Source: Oligella urethralis DSM 7531 (GTDB lineage: Bacteria; Pseudomonadota; Gammaproteobacteria; Burkholderiales; Burkholderiaceae_B). From it: a stretch of DNA of 44,090 nucleotides. Positions 36,486-38,160 of the stretch are shown piece after piece. Positions within the stretch are counted from its first letter, which is position 1; each line of letters opens with the position of its first letter. Made by a program: the position numbers and the translations under genes. The stretch lies in NCBI RefSeq assembly GCF_000372065.1, contig NZ_AQVB01000017.1, forward strand, positions 1-44,090, written 5' to 3'. The notes beneath the pieces are model-generated. The model searched no databases and was not told the DNA's origin. It worked only from the letters and a program-made list of their open reading frames with translations.

Positions 36486-36509
36486 TACCCCACTTAAATA
36501 AGCGGGGTA
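36486..36509 (-). terminator. terminator after the hpf-baeRF unit
   Basis: Minus strand: an 11-bp stem TACCCCGCTTA paired with TAAGTGGGGTA (one G-U) and a tiny loop, followed by TTTTGTTCTT. It lies 33 bases after the baeRF stop at 36543 and closes the two-gene transcript. Confidence 0.87.
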
Positions 36510-36542: not shown

Positions 36543-37697
36543 CTAAAAGCGATAAATCGAAGCAATACCGGTATCCGTTGGCATATACTGACTTGGGATA
36601 ATTTTCACATCGCCACCGCGACGTAGCACCATTTCAGCCAAATCATCTAACACATCATCGGCATTGGGGTCGGAAAAGTCCGCCACTAGCTCAACCTTAC
36701 GGGCTTCACGATCAATTTTGCCGGCAAGCTTTTTCTCGGCATCAACTAATAAAGTATCCACCCGACCATCTAGAATTGCCGCTAAGGTGCGATCAAGGTC
36801 GCCATTGGCAAGACCCGTGCCGTGCGTTTGCTGAAAACGACTAATTTCCTCCTGCACCCGCTTTGCCGCTACTGGTTCCACGATCGCCCACGCTTTTTCA
36901 AGCAATTGCTCTTCACTTAAAGCGCTCGGATCAACATGAATCTCTTGCTCCAAAACATATGGATTTGCATTGTGCTTGCGGAAAGCGCCCAGGTTTTCAG
37001 GTAGCCCCACTAACACCACAGGCAGTTTGGCATTTTTGCTGATATTGTTATGCAAAGCACGTGCCACCACTCCTAAAAAGCGCTCTTTATCCGCCTGTAC
37101 AGCGTCTTTACGACCACCTTGATAGCGCAAGGCCTGACGCTGACGATAGGATGGACCTAAACCATAGGAGGAGCTCGGTATCATTGGCGCCGTTTCGTCG
37201 TACGTATCATCAATATGCTCAGGGAAGCCCTCAGCAAAAATCACCTGATCCAGACCCTCACGTGTGCCCTCATACATCTCAATATCGGTACGGGTAATGC
37301 AAAGCACCTGGAAGCGATCTTGCGTCTGCGTGATGCGTAGCAAAGGCTTTAAGTGAAAGGAATCAGACACAACAGCAAAGGCTTCGGGCTGACGCTGCAA
37401 GGTAAATACCTCAAAATGAGTTTCATCCGCCAAAATTGCTAAGCCATCTAAGACCTGACGCTGCCAAAAATCATGATTATCAGCCAACTGCTGAAAAGGT
37501 TGCATCAGCGACTCGATCTCACTTTTAGCATATTTCTCTGCCAAGGATTGCTCTAATGTCTTGAGCAAGTTTTTGTAGCGAATCAGATCCTGCTGATTTT
37601 CAGGGTGGCTCCGGTGTGTCGGTTGGTACAAAGATAAGCAAGGTCCCTCGTGCCTTTCTAAAAAATAACTCAGGCTTTGAAGATTAACTGGTTGCAT
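36543..37697 (-). CDS. baeRF (bacterial archaeo-eukaryotic release factor 1-like) family protein
   Basis: 384 residues. The HEGPCLSLYQPTHRSHPENQ start, DGLAILADETHFEVFTL and SDSFHLKPLLRI segments match the baeRF3-type group of eRF1-related proteins. The loop corresponding to GGQ of eRF1 appears as GGR (about residues 194-196), so classic peptidyl-tRNA hydrolysis is doubtful. C-terminal part resembles an L7Ae-like domain (VDTLLVDAEKKLAGK ... DDVLDDLAEMVLRRGGDVKII). Relatives such as Balon bind dormant ribosomes. Preceded by hpf-like gene (81 bases) and a strong AAGGAG site, spacing seven. Function here is inferred. Confidence 0.85.
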   Translation of the reverse strand: MQPVNLQSLSYFLERHEGPCLSLYQPTHRSHPENQQDLIRYKNLLKTLEQSLAEKYAKSEIESLMQPFQQLADNHDFWQRQVLDGLAILADETHFEVFTLQRQPEAFAVVSDSFHLKPLLRITQTQDRFQVLCITRTDIEMYEGTREGLDQVIFAEGFPEHIDDTYDETAPMIPSSSYGLGPSYRQRQALRYQGGRKDAVQADKERFLGVVARALHNNISKNAKLPVVLVGLPENLGAFRKHNANPYVLEQEIHVDPSALSEEQLLEKAWAIVEPVAAKRVQEEISRFQQTHGTGLANGDLDRTLAAILDGRVDTLLVDAEKKLAGKIDREARKVELVADFSDPNADDVLDDLAEMVLRRGGDVKIIPSQYMPTDTGIASIYRF

Positions 37698-37778
37698 CGT
37701 ACTCTCCTTATTATGTAATTTGTGAAAAACCTCAATCAAGGCCGTGATATCAGCTACCACTAGTTATCCGCTGATTAC

Positions 37779-38102
37779 CTATGAGCGGTGGTCCTGCGAC
37801 TTGGAAATCACTTTGCTAAGACCTTGTACTAGCTTACGCGTGGCCTCAAGAATAGCAATCTGAATATCCTCTGAGCGATGCTCAGCCACCACTGGCTTCA
37901 TTGCCGCTACCCGAGCCTCAACCAAGCAACGCTTATCAGTAGCACCGGCACGTGTTTCACTATTGACATCCGACAGATGATATTCAACGCGAGTTAGATG
38001 TGCTGCTTGATGCTTTAACTCCTTCGCCGCGATCGCCTCAATGCGTTGAACTAATGCCTCGCTACGTGTGGTGTGCCTGTCAGTATTAACTAAAATTTGC
38101 AT
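37779..38102 (-). CDS. HPF/RaiA-family ribosome-associated protein
   Basis: 107 residues of the ribosome hibernation-promoting factor fold: MQILVNTDRHTTRSEALVQRIE, then VEYHLSDVNSE, DKRCLVEAR and a C-terminal helix. It has only the ribosome-binding domain, as in short HPF and YfiA, with no C-terminal dimerisation domain. Such proteins occupy the tRNA/mRNA channel of resting ribosomes. AAGGAGG lies five bases before the ATG. First gene of the unit with the baeRF protein; a 6-residue ORF with a good ribosome-binding site lies in its leader. Confidence 0.85.
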   Translation of the reverse strand: MQILVNTDRHTTRSEALVQRIEAIAAKELKHQAAHLTRVEYHLSDVNSETRAGATDKRCLVEARVAAMKPVVAEHRSEDIQIAILEATRKLVQGLSKVISKSQDHRS

Positions 38103-38160
38103 AGAACCTCCTTGAACTACTGCGTTTTATTATTACTCTATTATTACTAAAGATTGAGCA

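Follow-up and report, generated by a model that had tools for sequence, protein, structure and literature searches.

A two-gene locus in Oligella urethralis

We analyzed a 44,090-nucleotide (nt) stretch of DNA from Oligella urethralis DSM 7531 (contig NZ_AQVB01000017.1, positions 1 to 44,090; here called the window) and focused on two adjacent genes of its minus strand. An earlier note, written from the sequence alone, had described them as genes for an HPF/RaiA-type protein of 107 amino acids (aa) and a baeRF protein, and the coordinates together with matches to the Pfam domains PF02482 and PF18845 bear this out. The HPF-like gene comes first, followed by an 81-nt gap, the baeRF gene, and then an intrinsic terminator (Table 1). 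By analogy with the hibernation factor Balon, the two genes very probably form a ribosome-hibernation operon, in which a Balon-type baeRF protein and an HPF-like protein would block the ribosome without peptide release.

TABLE 1 Positions of the paired genes and their signals in the window
Feature	Position	Strand	Remark
HPF/RaiA-like gene, short form (S30AE domain only)	37779..38102	minus	107 aa
baeRF family 3/Balon-type gene	36543..37697	minus	384 aa plus stop; ATG at 37697
Shine-Dalgarno AAGGAGG, HPF-like gene	38107..38113	minus	4 nt ahead of ATG; from sequence
Shine-Dalgarno AAGGAG, baeRF gene	37704..37709	minus	6 nt ahead of ATG; from sequence
Intrinsic terminator closing the pair	36486..36509	minus	10-pair stem, T-rich tail
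His31-Pro32, counterpart of the Balon HP motif that contacts the decoding center	37602..37607	minus	Aligns with HP of 8rd8_B
Gly194-Gly195-Arg196, end of the loop corresponding to the GGQ loop	37110..37118	minus	

Both genes have good ribosome-binding sites, called near perfect in the earlier note, and the single terminator was found where it had been placed. The 71-nt stretch around the terminator folded with a z-score of -3.06 (2 of 200 shuffles were equally good), while the consensus scan was by itself not significant (1 terminator-like site versus a shuffle mean of 1.8). The same scan found no terminator-like site between the two genes, and its 2 promoter-like sites were not above chance (shuffle mean, 2.9). 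The spacing and the single terminator suggest that the genes are co-transcribed. The list of open reading frames also offers an in-frame GTG at 37760, which would yield a baeRF protein of 405 aa; we chose the ATG because a ribosome-binding site precedes it and because similarity to the four same-genus relatives starts at that residue. Comparison of the upstream regions of six Oligella-group loci revealed no clear regulator site; conservation was limited to the ribosome-binding site and a few short stretches rich in A/T.

The baeRF protein resembles Balon

The baeRF protein matched PF18845 (baeRF_family3) with 116.6 bits (cutoff, 31.5; E value, 1.9e-33) over model positions 1-168 of 168, the one match to this family in the genome. 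Its homology to Balon spans the whole protein and shows in the sequence, the fold, and the HP motif. Structure prediction, which the earlier note had proposed as a check, gave an eRF1-like fold that is closest to Balon and matches it over the full length. The C domain of the model has two strands at 325-337, which may or may not correspond to the bL27 trap and EF-Tu-related beta-hairpin of Balon.

To count residues, we used 31 aligned relatives. This set omits two split genes (G005 and G430), the genes of G063, G107, and G126, the second of the two G326 copies, and six distant family members (G316, G335, G338, G365, G420, and G434). A 38-row alignment (A1) adds G107 and the six distant members to the 31 rows. 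Among the 31 relatives, the proline of the HP motif is present in all and the histidine in 28. The protein has neither the GGQ nor the NIKS hallmark of class-1 release factors (aeRF1), and no NIKS string occurs in any of the 38 rows.

In the model, the GGR tripeptide lies at the tail of a low-confidence loop (residues 168-194; predicted local distance difference test score of <50), immediately ahead of helix 196-223. The family profile pairs the GGR stretch with the LGGKR loop of the archaeal Pelota 3j15_A; by this profile alignment, the earlier description of GGR where eRF1 has GGQ is fair as to position. Residue 196 is K in 16 of the 31 relatives, R in 10, and another residue in 5, with Q in none; the corresponding column of the 38 rows holds K in 16, R in 11, Q in 1, gaps in 6, and other residues in 4. 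HGHGGK is common at this position, and the loop ahead of helix 196 varies in sequence and length. Since 26 of 31 relatives have K or R and HGHGGK is frequent, GGR is, as far as the alignment tells, part of a group-wide, putatively non-catalytic loop. A special substitution in the window protein was ruled out by the same 26 of 31 and by the variability of the loop. GGQ strings do occur in 9 of the 38 relatives, 8 of them C-terminal and one earlier in the loop (L041, its residue 174), and none of the nine is at the GGR position.

These counts bear on a rival reading in which the baeRF protein acts catalytically, hydrolyzing peptidyl-tRNA on stalled ribosomes as an alternative release factor or a rescue factor. 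Such a role would suit the full-length eRF1-superfamily fold, and some few baeRF families retain the glutamine (Burroughs and Aravind 2019, PMC6514570). Nevertheless, the complete lack of glutamine at residue 196 in the close relatives (a single row of 38 has it when distant members are included), the variable loop, and the missing NIKS make this role very unlikely.

A divergent HPF in addition to a canonical one

The HPF-like protein matched PF02482 with 25.0 bits (cutoff, 23.7). It was assigned to the HPF/RaiA superfamily on two grounds, a predicted HPF fold and a score above the PF02482 gathering threshold; against the NCBIfam model for the HPF/YfiA equivalog (TIGR00741) it reached 21.0 bits, below the cutoff of 40.9. 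By these profile scores, it is a divergent member of the superfamily. The genome has two PF02482 genes, the paired one (24.3 bits) and a canonical HPF gene at G000:C3 (71.6 bits); the latter precedes a gene for a 149-aa protein resembling phosphotransferase system EIIA (named by eye). The two HPF proteins share the Pfam domain and a length of 107 aa but are encoded at separate loci and have little pairwise similarity. A strong PF02482 match (>70 bits), which we took as canonical HPF, was found in 28 of the 30 genomes searched; the exceptions were G482 (310 contigs), where only the HPF-like gene scored, and G464 (78% complete), where none did. In six genomes with baeRF (G393, G459, G387, G326, G374, and G471), only the canonical HPF scored.

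Distribution and linkage of the pair

In a sample of 250 genomes of the family, baeRF (counted at an E value of 1e-5) was found in 26, the HPF-like type (at 0.001) in 17, and both in 13. In every one of the 13 co-carriers, the HPF-like gene immediately precedes baeRF on the same strand; in one of them, G430, both genes are broken. The hypergeometric chance of at least 13 shared genomes under independence is 1.2e-11, a figure to be read with the caveat that related genomes are not independent. One of the 13 baeRF carriers counted as lacking the HPF-like type (G471) has a fragment of the HPF-like gene next door, and four HPF-like carriers (G304, G390, G404, and G409) lack baeRF. In the window, the pair is followed on the same strand by a gene for a 394-aa protein resembling acetyl-CoA acetyltransferase (named by eye) and preceded by a 251-aa gene pointing away. 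The same-genus genome G304 retains the HPF-like gene (L068, G304:C13; ~1501-1821) and both of its flanking genes, with no baeRF between them; baeRF was not found elsewhere in this assembly, which is 84% complete. We regard this locus as a natural loss or pre-gain state of baeRF. Within the genus, baeRF is present in 5 of 8 genomes.

In a sample of 300 genomes of the order, baeRF was found in 9. Beyond the window, an HPF-like gene adjoins it in four of these, upstream in G090, G026, and G005 and downstream in G284; no HPF-like gene was found near baeRF in G292, G063, and G107, and in G126 the baeRF match is at a contig end. Among named relatives, the closest are an Alcaligenaceae metagenome-assembled genome (L033, 79% identity) and Oligella ureolytica DSM 18253 (L034, 77%). 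Among 12 relative loci, the HPF-like gene is upstream in four Alcaligenaceae loci, ~30 nt downstream of baeRF in L040 (Saprospiraceae), and ~1.3 kb away on the opposite strand in L039; in the other six, no HPF-like gene was present in the stretch covered. Linkage is thus frequent and gene order variable, as expected for a functional, non-obligate association. An obligate pair was ruled out by the 13 of 26 baeRF carriers without the HPF-like type, the 4 of 17 HPF-like carriers without baeRF, and the G304 locus. The same three observations weaken the word "dedicated" in the earlier note's proposal of a dedicated hibernation/recovery module whose baeRF protein enters the A site without releasing peptide; hibernation and A-site binding with no release are strongly supported by the homology to Balon. 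That note had also counted homologues unlinked to hpf as evidence against a module; such homologues exist, alongside the unbroken adjacency among co-carriers.

In a quick tree of baeRF (midpoint root, some weak branches), Planctomycetota and Bacteroidota rows fall among Burkholderiales rows, and proteins 36-40% identical to that of the window recur in these two phyla. Both observations fit the lateral spread argued for in PMC6514570, without proving it.

Several further observations were made on baeRF genes. The frame is split in two near residues 235-250 in genomes of different families, at L008 (G005:C1:134550-135690) and L032/L052 (G430:C4); in G430, where the HPF gene is broken too, this points to decay or sequencing error. 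G326 has two copies, on C171 and C141 (L057 and L045), neither with an HPF neighbor in the stretch covered. In L051, a distant baeRF is directly followed on its own strand by a universal stress protein-like gene, and in L053 an HdeD-like gene is located upstream (both named by eye). Among plasmid records, 15 carry a distant baeRF (<31% identity) and 6 the HPF-like type; none of them carries both. On a mobilizable Moraxella plasmid (L111; NZ_CP135141.1, 21578-30699), a gene annotated as hypothetical encodes a distant Balon-type protein (25% identity) and lies near genes for Qat anti-phage proteins and an MqsA-family antitoxin and near nhaA; four further plasmid records, of Moraxella osloensis, have similar matches.

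Co-divergence of the paired proteins

The baeRF and HPF-like proteins co-diverge, with an r of 0.956 in 14 genomes (none of 5000 permutations was as high), compared to 0.822 for baeRF and canonical HPF; the partial r for the paired proteins was 0.862. G482, G430, and G005 are absent from the 14-genome set; all three have the pair, but they either lack a second or an intact HPF row or have a baeRF that is not intact. Inheritance of the two genes together in one operon suffices to explain the co-divergence, without any physical contact. More tentatively, and in our view rather improbably, Alcaligenaceae and other Burkholderiales may have two separate hibernation routes, a housekeeping HPF and a second, divergent HPF subfamily whose gene sits beside that of its own Balon-type partner, with which it co-diverges; this pair would form a ribosome state that canonical HPF does not.

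The two proteins could also be hibernation factors that have a promoter in common but are each useful alone, neither depending on the other, an alternative that overlaps the operon reading, which needs no mutual dependence. The G304 locus and the baeRF carriers without the HPF-like type would be explained by it, as would four Acinetobacter baumannii records that have the HPF-like type and no baeRF match at an E value of 1e-5. It is less easily reconciled with the adjacency in all co-carriers, the tight co-divergence, and the finding of Balon and RaiA on the same ribosome in Psychrobacter urativorans (PMC10901736), and we consider independence possible but not the likelier case.

Proposed mechanism

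In the operon model, the HPF-like protein would bind idle 70S ribosomes at the decoding region of the 30S subunit, and the baeRF protein, compatible with HPF on the same ribosome, would enter the A site, where its His-Pro motif would touch the decoding center without using mRNA. The flexible loop would reach toward the peptidyl-transferase center; because it lacks the catalytic glutamine, no peptide would be released, and the ribosome would be left blocked and protected. Several results weigh against this model. The baeRF protein did not pass the NCBIfam model for the Balon equivalog (NF052287; 189.7 of 330 bits), and because this cutoff was not reached, we call it a homologue of Balon and do not claim orthology. 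The structural alignment to Balon had ~20% identity and a large root mean square deviation of 8.0, and the predicted template modeling score of the structure model was 0.69. With distant members counted, the histidine of the HP motif is kept in 28 of 38 rows and the proline in 33, that is, they are absent from 10 and 5, respectively. Half of the baeRF carriers in the family sample (13 of 26) lack the HPF-like type.

By filling the A site and the 30S site, the pair might instead serve mainly to shield the ribosome from drugs that target it. In A. baumannii, HPF-bound 70S ribosomes showed no eravacycline at the 30S site, from which the authors infer that the sites overlap (PMC8263017), and Balon overlaps drug sites (PMC10901736). 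Any blocker of this sort should, however, give shielding as a side effect, and we rate an antibiotic-protection pair very unlikely.

Comparison with known systems

A literature search on Oligella with hibernation and ribosome found no paper. The proteins and their pairing have been described, and the window pair is a further member of that kind. Since the general idea is published, its value is that of a test system rather than a discovery: the locus is a clean Oligella example of a Balon-type factor beside a divergent HPF, and a genome of the same genus offers a natural comparison at the same locus with no baeRF gene.

An HPF gene neighborhood and the usual loss of the glutamine in baeRF were reported, and non-catalytic A-site insertion proposed, by Burroughs and Aravind; in their paper, both traits, shared by the window pair and the baeRF-1 clade, are described for several or most families of the clade. 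We found no defining difference between the window protein and baeRF family 3 (PF18845).

The HPF of A. baumannii (PDB 7m4z chain v) is 30% identical to the HPF-like protein. In A. baumannii record CP040042.1 (L109), no baeRF is listed within ~4 kb on either side (the gene table is incomplete), and tblastn of the record also found none. In this record, the HPF-like type gene, whose product is 30% identical to that of the window, is followed by an ankyrin-repeat gene.

The closest known counterpart is Balon (AOC03_06830, P. urativorans; PDB 8rd8, 8rdv, and 8rdw), found on dormant ribosomes together with RaiA and reported to have neither GGQ nor NIKS (Helena-Bueno 2024, PMC10901736). According to that report, its HP motif is at the decoding center, its lasso loop is at the peptidyl-transferase center and poorly ordered without P-site tRNA, and the RaiA gene is the most frequent neighbor of the Balon gene. 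The window protein shares with Balon the full-length homology, the three-domain eRF1-like fold, the HP motif, the lack of NIKS and of GGQ at the loop, and the adjacent gene of the HPF/RaiA type. It differs in its longer loop ahead of helix 196, and its HPF partner is of a subtype other than the RaiA of 8rd8.
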